DNA of 5,494 nucleotides, taken from NCBI GenBank assembly GCA_965371325.1, contig CBDUXZ010000157.1, positions 1 to 5,494 of the forward strand, written 5' to 3'. This stretch comes from CBDUXZ01 sp965371325 [NCBI: uncultured bacterium] (GTDB lineage Bacteria; JAUYMQ01). Position 1 is the first letter of the stretch, and the number at the start of each line of letters is the position of its first letter. The translations under genes were made by a program, and so were the position numbers. Below, in pieces: positions 522 to 5,494 of the stretch. Below the pieces are notes generated by a model, which searched no databases, was not told the DNA's origin, and worked only from the letters and a program-made list of their open reading frames with translations.

Positions 522-1328
522 TCAGCGCCCTTTGAACCGGGGCTTGCGCCCCTCGAGGAACGCCGCCTGCCCCTCCGCCATATCCTCGCTTGCGAAACTC
601 TCGGCGACGAGGCGGAATGCTTCTTCCTCCGTCTCAGCCGAAAGGGGACGCTCCTCGATGCAGGCGTTAATCACACGCTTCATGCCCCGCACGGCGAGGG
701 GCGCGTTCGCGGCGATCGATCCGGCCATTTCACCGACGGTTTCCTGGAGATCGGTCCGGGCCACGACGTGGTTCACGAGTCCTATCGCCAGTGCACGCCG
801 AGCGTCTACCGGAAGAGCGGTGAAAAACATCTCTTTCGTCGCGGCGACCCCGATGAGATTCAGAAAACGCGTGAGTCCCACCGGAGAGTAGATGATCCCC
901 AGGCGTGCCGGGGGCATACCGAAGGTGGCGTCCTCAACAGCCACCCGTAGATCGCAGGCGGTGATAAGCTCGCAGCCCGCGCCGTATGCGTGACCGTTCA
1001 CCATGGCGATGGTGGGGACGGGAAAACGCGCTAGGGCCCCAATGGCCTCCTGCACGATGTTGCGGGGGGCCTTCTCATTGAACTCCGAAGGGGGCATGCG
1101 GGTGGGGATCGCGGAGATGTCGAACCCGGAGCAGAAGCTTTTCTCACCCGCTCCCCTGATGAGCAGCACGCGAACGTCTTCTTTTTCAAGCGTCGCGAGT
1201 GCTTCCATGAAATCAACGAGGAGATCGATGTAGAGCGCGTTTCGCTTGGCGGGATTATTGATGACGAGCGTCGCGACCGCATCCTGCCGCGTGACGATGA
1301 CCCGATCGGTCGCAGCTTGCCCCGACAT
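522..1328 (-). CDS. Crotonase-family protein (enoyl-CoA hydratase / methylmalonyl-CoA decarboxylase-like)
   Basis: A complete 268-residue protein, the usual crotonase length. The frame extends upstream to an ATG at 1415, but that would overlap the biotin carrier gene. The ATG at 1328 has GGTGGAG five bases upstream and begins directly before the conserved fold, so I chose it. Seen: the oxyanion-hole segment SFCSGFDI (about 64-71), NGHAYGAGCE (111-120), FGMPPARLGIIYSPVG (136-151), and the C-terminal FLEGRKPRFKGR typical of the family. Glu120 matches the first catalytic Glu of enoyl-CoA hydratase (rat Glu144), but the second (rat Glu164, in a FGxPE motif) is Pro140. The RLGIIY segment and the following NHVV region recall E. 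coli methylmalonyl-CoA decarboxylase (ScpB/YgfG), whose active-site Tyr would be Tyr147, although its active-site His is Phe69 here. A hydratase using one Glu, a decarboxylase or another crotonase reaction are all possible. It is the last gene of the accC operon, 31 bases after the carrier gene. Confidence 0.93.
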   Translation of the reverse strand: MSGQAATDRVIVTRQDAVATLVINNPAKRNALYIDLLVDFMEALATLEKEDVRVLLIRGAGEKSFCSGFDISAIPTRMPPSEFNEKAPRNIVQEAIGALARFPVPTIAMVNGHAYGAGCELITACDLRVAVEDATFGMPPARLGIIYSPVGLTRFLNLIGVAATKEMFFTALPVDARRALAIGLVNHVVARTDLQETVGEMAGSIAANAPLAVRGMKRVINACIEERPLSAETEEEAFRLVAESFASEDMAEGQAAFLEGRKPRFKGR

Positions 1329-1333
1329 GCGCA

Positions 1334-1340
1334 CTCCACC
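1334..1340 (-). promoter_or_regulatory. Ribosome binding site that sets the crotonase start
   Basis: On the minus strand this reads GGTGGAG and lies five bases before the ATG at 1328. It supports that start over the upstream in-frame ATG at 1415, which lies inside the biotin carrier gene. The GTG two codons before the ATG overlaps the site itself and is therefore an unlikely start. Confidence 0.6.
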
Positions 1341-1359
1341 CTGTTTCGGCCCGATGACT

Positions 1360-1575
1360 TCAGCCGATAACGGCGAGAACGTCCCCCTCGTTGACCGCGG
1401 CGCCCTCGGTAACACGAATCTCCGTGATGCTTCCGCTCGCCGTGGCCTCCACCGGCATCTCCATCTTCATCGATTCGAGAATGATAATCGTGTCACCCTC
1501 CTGAACCTCGTCGCCAACGTTTGATTCGATCTTCCAGACGGTTCCGGTGATATGTGCGGGAACATCTGTCGCCAT
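1360..1575 (-). CDS. Minimal biotin carboxyl carrier protein (biotin/lipoyl attachment domain)
   Basis: A 71-residue protein that is nothing but one biotinyl domain. The hallmark ESMKMEMPV is present, with Lys37 as the expected biotinylation site between two Met residues; it sits on the hairpin between two half-barrel repeats (about 5-34 and 42-71). The flanking Gly residues GDEVQEGD and the C-terminal NEGDVLAVIG are typical of the fold. MKM flanked by Glu favours biotin over lipoate. There is no Pro/Ala-rich N-terminal arm as in E. coli AccB (about 156 residues). It resembles the short stand-alone carriers, such as Bacillus YngHB, that accompany an acyl-CoA carboxylase biotin carboxylase. 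It would be biotinylated by BirA, charged with carboxyl by the biotin carboxylase encoded just upstream, and would hand it to a carboxyltransferase not seen here. The ATG at 1575 has AAGGAG eight bases upstream, and the gene starts 35 bases after the accC stop. Confidence 0.95.
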   Translation of the reverse strand: MATDVPAHITGTVWKIESNVGDEVQEGDTIIILESMKMEMPVEATASGSITEIRVTEGAAVNEGDVLAVIG

Positions 1576-1583
1576 TTCTCAAG

Positions 1584-1589
1584 CTCCTT
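1584..1589 (-). promoter_or_regulatory. Ribosome binding site of the biotin carrier gene
   Basis: The minus strand reads AAGGAG eight bases before the ATG at 1575. It lies in the 35-base gap after accC, with no sign of a terminator, so the two genes are probably cotranscribed. Confidence 0.7.
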
Positions 1590-1610
1590 GCGCGCGCAGG
1601 CCCGCGAAGC

Positions 1611-2954
1611 CTACGCCTTCAGTCGGTTGTATAGAAATCCGGTGTCGAATTCACCGGCCCGAAACTCGCGATGCTGCAGCACTTCCTTGTGTAAATCGAT
1701 GTTCGTGTGAATTCCCTCTACCCGGTAATTTCCGAGCGCGTCGAGAGCCCGTTCGATCGCTTCTTCGCGCGACTTGCCCGAGACGATGAGCTTTGCCAGC
1801 AGGGGATCATAGTGAACACTTACGACCGATCCCTCGGCAACGCCGCTGTCCACGCGCACACCCTCCCCCTTTGGCTCCTTCCATTTTTCGATCGTGCCGG
1901 GGCTGGGCATGAAGTTCTTCCCGGGGTTCTCCGCGTAGATTCGAAACTGGATGGCGTGGCCTTCGGGCTTCACCTCATGCTGCGAAAGGGATAGCCGCTC
2001 TCCCGACGCGACCTGGAGCTGCATATGGACCAGATCGACATTGCAGGTGGCTTCGGTAACGGTGTGCTCGACCTGCAGACGGGTGTTCATCTCGATGAAG
2101 TAGAAGTTCTTATCCCCATCGATAAGGAATTCGATCGTTCCCGCGTTGAGATAATCGACGGTGCGCGCCGCTCTAATCGCCGCCTCACCCATCCTGGCCC
2201 TGAGCGCGGGCGTGAGCCCCGTGCTAGGCGTCTCCTCGATGACTTTCTGGTGCCGGCGCTGAATCGTGCATTCCCGCTCGAAGAGATGGATGAGATTACC
2301 ATCGCCATCGCCAAAGATCTGGAACTCCACGTGGCGAGGGGCCTCGATGCATTTTTCGATATAGACGGCGCCGTCGCCAAAGAGCGACTCCGCGCGGGCT
2401 GTGGCGGCCGGAAAAGCCTTCTCGAGGGCCGCCTCGTCCTGAACGCGCTGCATGCCCAGCCCGCCTCCACCGCCCGAAGCCTTGATGAAAACGGGATACC
2501 CTGCCTCAATGGCGGCCTTCTTCGCCTCTTCGATCGTTTGCACGGAACCGTCGCTCCCCGGCACCACGGGAACGCCGGCCCTCTGCATCAGGGTCCGCGC
2601 CTGCGCCTTCGAACCCATCTTCTCGATGGCCTCCGCACGGGGACCGATGAAGACCAGCCCCGCCTCCACGCACAGCCGGGCGAACCCCGCGTTCTCCGAG
2701 AGAAAGCCGTAACCCGGATGAATTGCCTCGGCGGCTGTCTGCTTCGCGGCACGGACAATGCGGTCGGCGTCGAGGTAGCTCTCTCTTGCCGGCGGCGGGC
2801 CGATCAGAACGCGCTCATCCGCGCCAAGCGCGTGGGGGGCATTTGCATCGGCTTCCGAGTGCACCGCGACGGTGGCGATGCCCAGTTCCTTACAGGCGCG
2901 CATCACGCGCAGGGCAATCTCACCCCGGTTGGCAATGAGAACTTTCCTGAACAC
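1611..2954 (-). CDS. accC: Biotin carboxylase subunit of an acyl-CoA carboxylase
   Basis: ATP-dependent carboxylation of the biotin carried by a carrier protein, in the cytoplasm. I chose the GTG at 2954: it gives the classic N-terminus (f)MFRKVLIANRGEIALRV, has GGAGAG seven bases upstream, and yields 447 residues (E. coli AccC has 449). An ATG at 3026 is in frame but lies upstream of the likely promoter. Seen: the N-terminal domain with HPGYGFLSEN, the ATP-grasp glycine loop KASGGGGGLGM (Lys158), ERECTIQRRHQK (226-237), and EMNTRLQVEH with Glu288, Asn290, Arg292 and Glu296, then FRIYAENP with Arg338. These numbers match the E. coli catalytic residues exactly, which also supports the GTG start. 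One difference is Leu166 where E. coli has Arg in the glycine loop. With the carrier gene next to it, this is the biotin carboxylase half of an acetyl-, propionyl- or longer acyl-CoA carboxylase; the carboxyltransferase that would set the substrate is not in the window. Confidence 0.97.
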   Translation of the reverse strand: MFRKVLIANRGEIALRVMRACKELGIATVAVHSEADANAPHALGADERVLIGPPPARESYLDADRIVRAAKQTAAEAIHPGYGFLSENAGFARLCVEAGLVFIGPRAEAIEKMGSKAQARTLMQRAGVPVVPGSDGSVQTIEEAKKAAIEAGYPVFIKASGGGGGLGMQRVQDEAALEKAFPAATARAESLFGDGAVYIEKCIEAPRHVEFQIFGDGDGNLIHLFERECTIQRRHQKVIEETPSTGLTPALRARMGEAAIRAARTVDYLNAGTIEFLIDGDKNFYFIEMNTRLQVEHTVTEATCNVDLVHMQLQVASGERLSLSQHEVKPEGHAIQFRIYAENPGKNFMPSPGTIEKWKEPKGEGVRVDSGVAEGSVVSVHYDPLLAKLIVSGKSREEAIERALDALGNYRVEGIHTNIDLHKEVLQHREFRAGEFDTGFLYNRLKA

Positions 2955-2961
2955 GATTTTT

Positions 2962-2967
2962 CTCTCC
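2962..2967 (-). promoter_or_regulatory. Ribosome binding site that sets the accC GTG start
   Basis: The minus strand reads GGAGAG seven bases before the GTG at 2954. It favours that start, rather than the ATG at 3026, as the true beginning of the biotin carboxylase. Confidence 0.65.
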
Positions 2968-2985
2968 GGCTTCCGCGAAAGCAGG

Positions 2986-3014
2986 TCTGTAACACGCGTT
3001 GATTGGCCAGTCAA
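2986..3014 (-). promoter_or_regulatory. Predicted sigma70-type promoter of the accC operon
   Basis: On the minus strand TTGACT (3014-3009) and TACAGA (2991-2986) are separated by exactly 17 bases. The -35 hexamer matches the consensus at 5 of 6 positions; the -10 is weak (3 of 6). Transcription would begin near 2979, leaving a leader of about 25 bases with the GGAGAG site. The -35 lies inside the palindrome at 2998-3015, as expected if a repressor competes with RNA polymerase. This is inferred from sequence only. Confidence 0.45.
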
Positions 3015-3024
3015 CCAAGTTGAC
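2998..3024. promoter_or_regulatory. Predicted operator: two overlapping inverted repeats between divergent promoters
   Basis: GTTGATTGGCCAGTCAAC (2998-3015) is an 18-base palindrome with a single mismatched pair. Its right arm GTCAAC (3010-3015) also forms a perfect inverted repeat with GTTGAC (3019-3024) across CAA. Three half sites of the type GTTGAC therefore stand in a row in alternating orientation. The first palindrome covers the -35 of the leftward promoter, and the second repeat reaches into the -35 of the rightward one. Size and symmetry suit a dimeric repressor such as the TetR-family regulators common in fatty-acid and acyl-CoA gene clusters, but no regulator gene is in the window and the family is a guess. 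Confidence 0.55.
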
Positions 3025-3048
3025 ATCGGAGTCAGGGATGGCTAAAAC
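3020..3048 (+). promoter_or_regulatory. Predicted sigma70-type promoter of the HMGS-like/thiolase operon
   Basis: A perfect TTGACA (3020-3025) is followed after 17 bases by TAAAAC (3043-3048; 4 of 6 to consensus). Transcription would start near 3055, giving a leader of about 27 bases ahead of the ATG at 3082. The -35 shares its first five bases with the right half of an inverted repeat (3010-3024), so the same protein could control both directions. Confidence 0.55.
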
Positions 3049-3081: not shown

Positions 3082-4509
3082 ATGCCCAAAGAATCCGTCG
3101 GGATTGTTTCCTTCGGCGCCTATCTCCCCCGTTACCGTCTCCCCCGTGAGGTCATCTCCCGGCACTGGGGACAGGCGCCCGGCAAGGGAGAGAAGGCCGT
3201 CGCGAACTTCGATGAAGACACCTTCACGATGGCCTACGAAGCGGCGGCCAACTGCTTCGAAGGACCAGGCGCCACAGCCCTGGAGAACGACACGCGCTTC
3301 GCCTGCTTTGCAAGCACCACCCCTCCCTACCACGAGAAGACAGGGGCCGGCCTTTTGGCCACCGCCCTCGATCTCCATCGCGCGTGCCGGACCTTCGACA
3401 GCGGAAACACGCTGCGCGCCGCGACCTCGGCGCTTCTCGCCGGCGCAGACGCCATCCACGCGGGTTCAACCGGGCGCGCACTCATCGCAGCGGCGGATAT
3501 TCGCCCGGCCGAACCGAGGAGCGCGACTGAGCTCGCCCTCGGGGACGGCGCCGCGGCGCTCATTCTGGGCGCCGATCAGTGCCTGGCGATCCTCGAGGGA
3601 CACGTTTCGATCAACGACGAGTTTCTCGGCACCTGGCGGCGCGATACGGACTCCTATGTGCAGCAGTTTCCCGGGGGGTTCGAGAACAAGTTCGGCTATC
3701 AGCGGGTTCTGCGGGAGAGCATCTCGGGACTGCTTGCGCTCTTGAACCTGAAGCCCCTCGATATCACGAACCTCATTCTCTACAGTCCGAACGCCCGGGC
3801 GCCCCGGACGGTGGCCCGGGGACTCGAAATGGATCCCAAGCGCCAGCTGGCCGACGCCATGCTCGGGACGTTGGGTGATACGGGCTGCGCGCAGGTCCTC
3901 CTGACGCTCGTGCGGGTGCTCGAGACGGCCGTGCCGGGAGATCGGATTCTCGTCGCCAGCTACGGGGACGGGAGCGACGCGCTTCTGTTCCGCGTGACCG
4001 AGGCTATCGAGGAGCATCGCAACCGCCGCGCCGTGTCTCATTATCTCAACCGGCGCAGGCCCATGGAGAACTACGGGAAGTACGCGTTGTTCCGGGATGT
4101 CGTAAAAACCGTTCCGGCCCAGGGGGCCAGCTCGCCGGTTGTCCTCTGGCGGGAGACCAAGCAGGACCTGCAGTTCTACGGAGAGAAGTGCGCGAAGTGC
4201 GAGACTGTCCAATTCCCGCGACAGCGCGTCTGCGTCTCCTGCGGCGCCAGGGATGACTTCACGGATCATAAGCTGGTGCGTCAGGGGATTCTACACACCT
4301 TCACGAACGACTACCTGCACCCCTCGGTCGATCCACCCACGACGGAGGCGATCATCAATATCGACGGGGGCGGCCGGGTACTCGTCCAGATGACCGACGC
4401 CGATCCCGAACAGATCCGCATTGGTCTGGAAGTGGACATCGTGCTTCGCAAGCTTCACGAGGGGGGCGGGATCAAGAACTACTTCTGGACGGCCAGGCCG
4501 CGCGATTGA
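3082..4509 (+). CDS. HMG-CoA synthase-like protein fused to a C-terminal zinc-ribbon/OB-fold DUF35 domain
   Basis: 475 residues. Residues 1-320 follow the archaeal-type HMG-CoA synthase fold (thiolase superfamily): VGIVSFGAYLPRYRL at the N-terminus, DEDTFTMAYEAA near 44-55, ALGDGAAALILGA near 152-164, and PGDRILVASYGDGSDALLF near the end. After a linker comes DUF35 (about 356-475): a zinc ribbon with Cys370, Cys373, Cys384 and Cys387, then an OB-fold ending in NYFWTARP. HMG-CoA synthases use Glu, Cys and His (Glu79, Cys111, His233 in the S. aureus enzyme). Aligned by eye, these are Thr79, Leu111 (CTG at 3412) and Tyr234 (in LYSPN), so the normal acyl-transfer chemistry looks impossible. In archaea a separate DUF35 protein bridges HMG-CoA synthase and acetoacetyl-CoA thiolase; here it is fused, and a thiolase gene follows after 24 bases. 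I infer a structural, CoA-binding or re-purposed partner for that thiolase. The ATG at 3082 has a weak GAGG six bases upstream. Fold confidence is high, reaction unknown. Confidence 0.92.
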   Translation: MPKESVGIVSFGAYLPRYRLPREVISRHWGQAPGKGEKAVANFDEDTFTMAYEAAANCFEGPGATALENDTRFACFASTTPPYHEKTGAGLLATALDLHRACRTFDSGNTLRAATSALLAGADAIHAGSTGRALIAAADIRPAEPRSATELALGDGAAALILGADQCLAILEGHVSINDEFLGTWRRDTDSYVQQFPGGFENKFGYQRVLRESISGLLALLNLKPLDITNLILYSPNARAPRTVARGLEMDPKRQLADAMLGTLGDTGCAQVLLTLVRVLETAVPGDRILVASYGDGSDALLFRVTEAIEEHRNRRAVSHYLNRRRPMENYGKYALFRDVVKTVPAQGASSPVVLWRETKQDLQFYGEKCAKCETVQFPRQRVCVSCGARDDFTDHKLVRQGILHTFTNDYLHPSVDPPTTEAIINIDGGGRVLVQMTDADPEQIRIGLEVDIVLRKLHEGGGIKNYFWTARPRD

Positions 4510-4533: not shown

Positions 4534-5494
4534 ATGGGTGACATTCGGGACCGTGTAGCCGTCGTTGGAACGGGATGCGCGAAGTTCGGCGAGAACTACG
4601 ACATGAGCATCGAAGACATGATCGTCGAGGCTGGTTTCGAGGCGCTCGGGGACGCGGGCGTGGAGCCGAAGGACATTCAGGCAGCCTGGGTAGGCACGTT
4701 GAATTCGGCCTTCTCGGGAACGAGCCTCGGCGACGCCCTGAAGATCCAGAAAATTCCCATCACGCGGGTGGAGAACTACTGCGCCAGCGGCATGGACGCC
4801 TTCCGGAACGCCTGTTTCGGCATTGCGAGCGGTATGTACGACGTGGCCCTGGTCCTGGGCTTCGAGAAGCTCCGCGATTCGGGCGCGCGGGGAATTCCGA
4901 ACACACGGAACCATCCCCTTCTGGCCTGGGGCGTGACGGCTCCGAACCTCTTCGCGCTGGCCGCGAACCGCCACTTCCACAAGTACGGTACGACCAAAAC
5001 ACAGCTGGCCAAGGTGGCCGTCAAGAACCACCACAACGGCGCCATGAACAAGAAAGCGCACTTCCAGATGGAGGTGGACATCGACAAGGTGATCAATGCG
5101 CCCTTGATCTCGAGCCCCCTCGGGCTCTTCGACTGTTGCCCCACGACCGACGGCGCCGCCGCCGCCGTGATCTGCCGCACCGACATCGCACGGAAGTTCC
5201 GCGACGACTACGTGGTGGTGAAGGGACTCGGTCTGGCGGTCACCTCCGGCGCCCCCTACTTCAAGCCGGGCTTCGAGTACGACGGCTTTCCGGCGACCAC
5301 GCTCGCGGCCAAGCAAGCCTACGAGCAGGCGGGGATCAAGAACCCCCTGGAGGAGATCGATCTCGCCGAAACCCACGACTGTTTCACGATCACCGAAATC
5401 CTGAATTACGAGGATCTCGGTTTTTGTGAGAAGGGAACCGGCGGGCGTTTCATCGAGGAGGGGCACTCCGCAATCGGCGGGAAGCTTCCCGTGA
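4534..5494 (+). CDS. Thiolase, SCP-x/archaeal acetoacetyl-CoA thiolase type (3' end outside window)
   Basis: The frame starts at the ATG at 4534 and stays open to the right edge, giving 320 residues of a family usually near 390. Seen: an N-terminal RDRVAVVGTGCAKFGE, the nucleophile motif ENYCASGMDAF with Cys83 (4780-4782), and ETHDCFTITEIL with His281, the HDCF form typical of SCP-x-type thiolases rather than the NEAF form of classical ones. The last residues, SAIGGKLPV, are those expected just before the SGG and GHPxGATG motifs, which lie outside. Known members cleave or form 3-ketoacyl-CoA; many need a DUF35 partner, which the preceding gene supplies as a fused domain. Retention of Cys83 and His281 argues for a true thiolase rather than an Ltp2-like retro-aldolase, which also pairs with DUF35. 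It probably forms an operon with the HMGS-like gene. The direction (condensing or cleaving) and chain length cannot be told. Confidence 0.95.
   Translation, partial: MGDIRDRVAVVGTGCAKFGENYDMSIEDMIVEAGFEALGDAGVEPKDIQAAWVGTLNSAFSGTSLGDALKIQKIPITRVENYCASGMDAFRNACFGIASGMYDVALVLGFEKLRDSGARGIPNTRNHPLLAWGVTAPNLFALAANRHFHKYGTTKTQLAKVAVKNHHNGAMNKKAHFQMEVDIDKVINAPLISSPLGLFDCCPTTDGAAAAVICRTDIARKFRDDYVVVKGLGLAVTSGAPYFKPGFEYDGFPATTLAAKQAYEQAGIKNPLEEIDLAETHDCFTITEILNYEDLGFCEKGTGGRFIEEGHSAIGGKLPV

Follow-up and report, generated by a model that had tools for sequence, protein, structure and literature searches.

An HMG-CoA synthase-like protein without the synthase catalytic residues, fused to a DUF35 module and paired with a thiolase gene

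The closest described systems are complexes in which a thiolase-type enzyme is accompanied by an HMG-CoA synthase (HMGCS)-fold subunit and a DUF35 protein, namely the archaeal acetoacetyl-CoA thiolase/HMGCS/DUF35 complex (6ESQ, 6ET9) and PhlACB of Pseudomonas protegens (5M3K, 5MG5). PMC6392133 identifies Glu82 and Cys114 as key to the archaeal HMGCS of 6ESQ; for PhlACB it assigns the chemistry to residues of PhlC only and describes a cavity common to PhlA and PhlC, closed by PhlB. The inactivity of PhlA is already on record (excerpts of PMC6392133 and PMC2954200). DUF35 is described as a bridge in related complexes in the available text of PMC12329534, and an excerpt of PMC2954200 mentions DUF35 homologues fused to members of the thiolase superfamily, which may include the family reported here. 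The excerpted text of PMC10398937 concerns a lone DUF35 protein. A literature search aimed at fused HMGCS-like/DUF35 members returned no paper that we recognised as describing one.

We analysed a stretch of 5,494 nucleotides, referred to in its whole length as the window, which encodes all three building blocks in two adjacent genes, with the following features.

522-3026, reverse strand: biotin carboxylase, a 71-residue BCCP-like gene and enoyl-CoA hydratase (open reading frames, Pfam)
3082-4509, forward strand: HMGCS-like/DUF35 fusion gene, 475 residues (open reading frame, Pfam and NCBIfam domains, predicted structure)
3082-4116, forward strand: HMGCS-like (PhlA-like) thiolase-fold domain, about residues 1-345 (NF003274 match at 5-342; VIA-align to 6esq_J)
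3316-3318, forward strand: codon of Thr79, at the catalytic Glu position (phmmer and MAFFT; Thr in 107 of 120 fused proteins)
3334-3336, forward strand: codon of Glu85, a clade-specific acidic residue (Glu in 106 and Asp in 10 of 120 fused proteins)
3412-3414, forward strand: codon of Leu111, at the nucleophilic Cys position (phmmer and MAFFT; Leu in 90 of 120)
3781-3783, forward strand: codon of Tyr234, at the catalytic His position (phmmer and MAFFT; Tyr in 62 of 120)
4165-4254, forward strand: rubredoxin-like zinc ribbon PF12172, residues 362-391 (Pfam 31.7 bits, cut-off 23.2)
4279-4446, forward strand: OB-fold domain PF01796, residues 400-455 (Pfam 30.6 bits, cut-off 27.1)
4534-5493, forward strand: partner thiolase of the SCP2/archaeal acetoacetyl-CoA thiolase type, running off the window (Pfam thiolase)
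4780-4782, forward strand: codon of the thiolase nucleophile Cys83 in NYCASG (Cys in all 82 rows covering the column)
5374-5385, forward strand: thiolase HDCF motif, at 281 (HDCF in all 72 partner thiolases of at least 370 residues)

The window gene is an HMGCS-like domain fused to a DUF35 zinc-ribbon/OB module. NF003274, the NCBI archaeal-type HMGCS model, covers residues 5-342 with a score below its cut-off, and the DUF35 part, whose zinc ribbon (Cys370, Cys373, Cys384 and Cys387) and OB fold both exceed their Pfam cut-offs, matches 6esq_E, 6ok1_B and 5m3k_B in a search of PDB sequences. Of 120 fused rows, 117 have Cys at all four zinc positions of the alignment; the exceptions are L004, L011 and L039. 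An initial annotation made from the sequence had described an intact, maintained gene with a complete zinc ribbon, and the uninterrupted reading frame, the wide conservation of the family and the four cysteines agree with it. The extent it gave, 3082-4044, captured the HMGCS-like part and missed the DUF35 fusion as a whole, the full reading frame reaching 4509.

An AlphaFold2 model built from 76 sequences (pLDDT 94.9, pTM 0.94) has the HMGCS fold. Its nearest structure by VIA-align is 6esq_J, the archaeal HMGCS of 6ESQ (Z 48.3, rmsd 1.6 A over 335 residues), followed by the PhlA-type chains 9skh_A (Z 46.9) and 5m3k_A (Z 46.0), MucA 9vbo_A (Z 42.2) and bacterial HMGCS (about 40). Foldseek ranked 9skh_A first and returned the same top families. 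The top matches of both methods are HMGCS, PhlA and MucA subunits of thiolase complexes, and the HMGCS fold originally proposed is borne out by this comparison of the predicted model with archaeal and bacterial synthases.

The catalytic residues of HMGCS (EC 2.3.3.10) are absent from the window protein. Alignments by phmmer and MAFFT agree, contain no gaps inside the motifs and place Thr79, Leu111 and Tyr234 in the columns of the general-base Glu, the nucleophilic Cys and the catalytic His, the last of which we take to be the His at residue 238 of the aligned 6ESQ HMGCS chain. The motifs ASTTPPY, NTLRAATSAL and LYSPN begin at window residues 77, 109 and 233, and the placement of the three residues first made by eye proved exact. 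In neither alignment does the window protein have a Cys at the nucleophile column, where Leu111 stands. The data support reading the window protein as a pseudoenzyme, a member of a conserved HMGCS-fold family without the HMGCS catalytic residues. The initial annotation had offered the same reading as one of two.

Relatives of the fusion are common. Single-sequence pattern scans with P0001 recovered no relatives in genome contigs or viral contigs. A tblastn search of plasmids yielded 63 records. Twelve loci were fetched from these, and an alignment (A1) of 11 of the 12 (all except L010) and the window was then used to search genome contigs, where at least 589 stretches matched, at least 570 were confirmed by tblastn and 80 were kept. 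These relatives come from several bacterial phyla and from archaea. P0001 also matched at E 1e-20 or better in 49 of a set of 58 genomes that included that of L013, and the alignments cover part of these matches.

Loss of the catalytic residues is nearly universal among the fused proteins. A first set of 90 rows (12 plasmid-borne, 77 from genome contigs and the window, with the interrupted reading frames L018, L024 and L030 dropped) had no Glu at the Glu column (Thr in 79), no Cys at the Cys column (Leu in 65) and His at the His column in two rows (Tyr in 54). After further genomes had been added, 119 of 120 distinct fused HMGCS-like/DUF35 proteins lacked both Glu and Cys: 117 had none of the three residues, L011 and L082 had His only, and L121 had all three, so that Glu, Cys and His occur at their columns in one, one and three proteins. 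Clustering at 95% identity left 111 proteins, 110 of them without Glu and Cys, with unchanged exceptions. As a positive control, the same columns held Glu, Cys and His together in 33 of 39 unfused rows, the six others being two other condensing enzymes (L109, L110) and the unfused pseudo rows L174-L177. L179 and L180 (547 and 557 residues), placed in neither the fused nor the unfused set, have Glu/Cys/His at the HMGCS columns, and their C-terminal part differs, the DUF35 region not being covered. At the three columns the fused proteins, a large clade, most often have Thr, Leu and Tyr (107, 90 and 62 of 120), and the idea that they mark a clade holds to that extent; the signature is not strict, the Tyr being replaced by Ala (15) or Pro (5) in the best 20 matches among relatives of the L013 genome.

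A tree of 63 hand-picked rows, rooted at the midpoint, placed 43 fused and four unfused pseudo rows on one side of a branch with 100/98 support and 13 active HMGCS and three PhlA/MucA rows on the other. Forty-two of the fused rows form one group (100/99); the haloarchaeal L010 lies outside it, with an unfused row on a long branch. PhlA/MucA, active HMGCS and the fused clade are three groups in this tree, and the midpoint root is compatible with one or two losses of catalysis. Loci L174-L177, four fetched of nine matches (293-342 bits) in the phylum of a Jordarchaeia genome, presumably Asgard, carry split versions in which an unfused pseudo-HMGCS, a separate DUF35-like reading frame and a thiolase lie side by side. 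One of them, L175, keeps Cys at the Cys column, without Glu and His. In L121 (1489-2976), from the same phylum, an HMGCS with intact Glu/Cys/His is also fused to DUF35. Because split pseudo versions and a fused intact version both occur, fusion and loss of catalysis are separable.

The thiolase gene starts 24 bases past the fusion stop and retains the nucleophilic Cys and the HDCF motif of the SCP2/archaeal type; its best PDB match is 6esq_A (194 bits), with PhlC chains at 77-89 bits. The conservation of Cys83 was counted over 83 rows including the window, the fragment L025 not covering the column. A GHP pattern in the C-terminal loop, which for the window thiolase would fall beyond the window end, is present in 67 of the 72 long partner thiolases. 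Across 92 homologous loci (the 12 plasmid loci and the 80 kept from at least 570 confirmed genome-contig stretches), a thiolase lies directly downstream of the fusion in 82, with a gap of at most 30 bases in 58 of these. In L010 the thiolase is directly upstream, in L018 and L024 it follows the interrupted match, in L044, L068 and L069 it is about 0.7-1.5 kb off with no adjacent one, and in L016, L017 and L028 the sequence stops at or just past the fusion gene. L030 (5001-7988) has an interrupted fused reading frame, a transposase-like reading frame downstream and no thiolase despite room for one, and seems to be an orphan fusion in decay.

Pairing extends to paralogues. Genome G003 (1.5 Mb) has seven long fused paralogues, each with its own thiolase, one of them cut by a contig end, and both long fused reading frames of genome G002 have their own thiolase. 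The seven pairs of G003 (L113-L118), reached through the Dehalococcoidia locus L021, are an unusual expansion. Identity matrices of the G003 fusions and thiolases correlate modestly within this one genome (r 0.615, with 19 of 5040 permutations as high; r 0.628 for the six complete pairs, with 9 of 720 as high).

The neighbours of relatives suggest catabolism. An acyl-CoA dehydrogenase gene adjoins the pair in all three near-relative loci scanned (L013, L183, L185); L013 and L185 also have a dehydratase-type gene, and L013 an SDR. Of the 12 plasmid loci, 11 have one or more genes annotated nearby as acyl-CoA dehydrogenase, enoyl-CoA hydratase, MaoC or SDR. The remaining plasmid neighbourhood, that of L010, showed no beta-oxidation-type gene other than the thiolase. 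In the window, no acyl-CoA dehydrogenase was found in the flank and no carboxyltransferase among the six proteins scanned. The pairs of L001 (2118-8573) and L006 (1034-8542) lie beside CoA ligase-type (AMP-binding) and ring-hydroxylating dioxygenase genes, a layout that we take to resemble the ibuprofen ipf cluster. In excerpts of PMC11347016 and PMC9195938, ipfE of that cluster is an OB-fold protein working with the thiolase ipfD.

We consider it likely that the fusion is a non-catalytic, HMGCS-derived scaffold or pocket subunit in a thiolase complex similar in kind to PhlACB or to the archaeal thiolase-HMGCS-DUF35 assembly, probably engaged in beta-oxidation-like cleavage. By analogy with those systems we infer that the fusion most likely assembles with the neighbouring thiolase into a comparable complex. 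Catalysis would fall to the thiolase, by way of Cys83, HDCF and the C-terminal GHP loop seen in its relatives. The DUF35 part would link the thiolase to the HMGCS-like domain, which, though dead itself, would have a structural role and probably form part of the acyl/CoA cavity, thereby influencing the choice of substrate. Thiolytic cleavage in a dedicated beta-oxidation-like module is probably the usual job of the pair, because the nearest relatives scanned adjoin an acyl-CoA dehydrogenase and mostly a dehydratase. The cavity analogy with PhlACB is weak, because, in the available parts of PMC6392133, PpATase does not have the CoA-binding residues of the archaeal complex and a role of PhlA and PhlB in earlier steps is left open. 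Other observations also weigh against a scaffold or pocket subunit: the tree does not place PhlA within the fused clade, four loci (L044, L068, L069 and L030) have no adjacent thiolase, the flank of the window pair carries biotin carboxylase, BCCP and enoyl-CoA hydratase genes and no acyl-CoA dehydrogenase, the L010 neighbourhood has no beta-oxidation-type gene apart from its thiolase, and the retention of Thr79 and of an acid at residue 85 is more than a plain scaffold would obviously need.

Those retained residues speak for new chemistry, which the initial annotation had offered as a second option and which we regard as improbable. In this alternative, Thr79, Glu85, Arg112 and Tyr234 would form a new active site that processes the substrate or product of the thiolase, for example by hydrolysis or CoA transfer. 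Residue 85, six positions past the lost catalytic Glu, is acidic in 116 of 120 fused proteins, whereas it is Val in 6esq_I and Ser in PhlA; Arg or Lys occupies residue 112 in 115 of 120, and Thr keeps its hold on the Glu column. Cys58 (codon 3253-3255) might be added to the set, being nearly invariant in alignment A2, from which L039 was left out by a filter for X; it is Cys in 84 of 120 fused proteins overall. However, the Cys column is highly variable (Leu, Thr, Val, Gln, Ala, Ile, Gly, Arg, Pro), as is the His column (Tyr, Pro, Ala, Ser and others), where the Tyr is lost in the best L013-relative matches, and the conserved residues may equally serve structure or an interface. PhlA, a studied relative without Cys and Glu, takes no part in acyl transfer according to the available text of PMC6392133. 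A combined version, in which the dead domain, fused to DUF35, was re-used in the acyl pocket of the partner across widespread two-gene thiolases while Thr79, the acid at 85 and Arg112 came to carry out a separate reaction on the thiolase substrate, appears unlikely to the same degree.

A synthetic rather than degradative role, in which the pair would act in Friedel-Crafts-like C-acylation as PhlACB does, strikes us as slightly less probable again. PhlA chains are the closest PDB sequence matches of the HMGCS-like domain, but the thiolase, with its HDCF motif, is far nearer to the archaeal acetoacetyl-CoA thiolase than to PhlC, and beta-oxidation-type neighbours accompany nearly all plasmid loci and the three near relatives scanned. 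That the protein is an active HMG-CoA synthase whose displaced residues were misplaced by the alignment is very improbable: it has the fold, 221 bits to the NCBI HMGCS model, a conserved acid just past the lost Glu, and Cys58 and Cys102, but the two gap-free alignments agree, the same alignment finds Glu/Cys/His in most unfused rows and Cys at the nucleophile column in a single fused protein, and genome G005 encodes, besides its fused protein, a bacterial-type HMGCS (L105) in which none of the residues is missing.

A non-catalytic subunit that scores well against synthase models is at risk of being misnamed, a risk to relatives rather than an observed case. The window protein fails all NCBI HMGCS equivalog cut-offs (221.3 versus 244, 144.8 versus 353.35 and 56.6 versus 360.35 bits), and none of 40 plasmid relatives among the matches listed has HMGCS as its product name. 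The warning in the initial annotation, that automatic naming would mislead, is partly supported: L015 (266.4 bits) and L021 (247.8 bits) exceed the cut-off of 244 without the catalytic residues, four of the six fused proteins scanned staying under it. Five fused reading frames in two of seven genomes exceed that NCBI HMGCS cut-off, and the four that were checked all lack the residues. Mistaking such proteins for HMGCS would lead to a mevalonate step being wrongly assigned to organisms; read as thiolase partners, the fused proteins would point to uncharacterised acyl-CoA catabolism.

PhlA is among the described proteins closest to the fusion: according to PMC6392133 it has the HMGCS fold without Cys and Glu, and its partners are a thiolase-like subunit with the Cys and a DUF35 protein, and the window likewise encodes such a fold together with DUF35 and a Cys-bearing thiolase. 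The initial annotation had proposed a pseudoenzyme and missed both the thiolase pairing and this precedent. PhlA and PhlB are separate proteins, whereas the window joins their counterparts in one chain, and the Glu/Cys/His columns hold Cys/Gly/Gln in PhlA and Thr/Leu/Tyr in the window protein (MAFFT); Cys83 and Gly115 of PhlA, as named in the available text of PMC6392133, agree with these columns. PhlACB serves antibiotic synthesis, and PhlA/MucA and the fused clade are distinct in the tree. The archaeal complex has the same three building blocks as the window pair, the nearest fold and the nearest thiolase, but there the DUF35 protein is a chain of its own and the HMGCS retains Glu82 and Cys114. 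MucA (MucABC, Streptococcus macacae, 9VBO/9VBT), also an HMGCS-like subunit of an acyltransferase complex, is a separate 359-residue chain without DUF35 and groups with PhlA on a long branch. In the excerpts of PMC12329534, the benzoylsuccinyl-CoA thiolase BbsAB and the steroid aldolases Ltp2-ChsH2 and Sal-Shy are catabolic and combine a thiolase-fold enzyme with DUF35, an HMGCS-like pseudoenzyme subunit not being described there. While a dead HMGCS-like subunit has itself been published, what is new relative to PhlA is the union of the A and B subunits in one chain and the apparently catabolic setting in which that chain is found.
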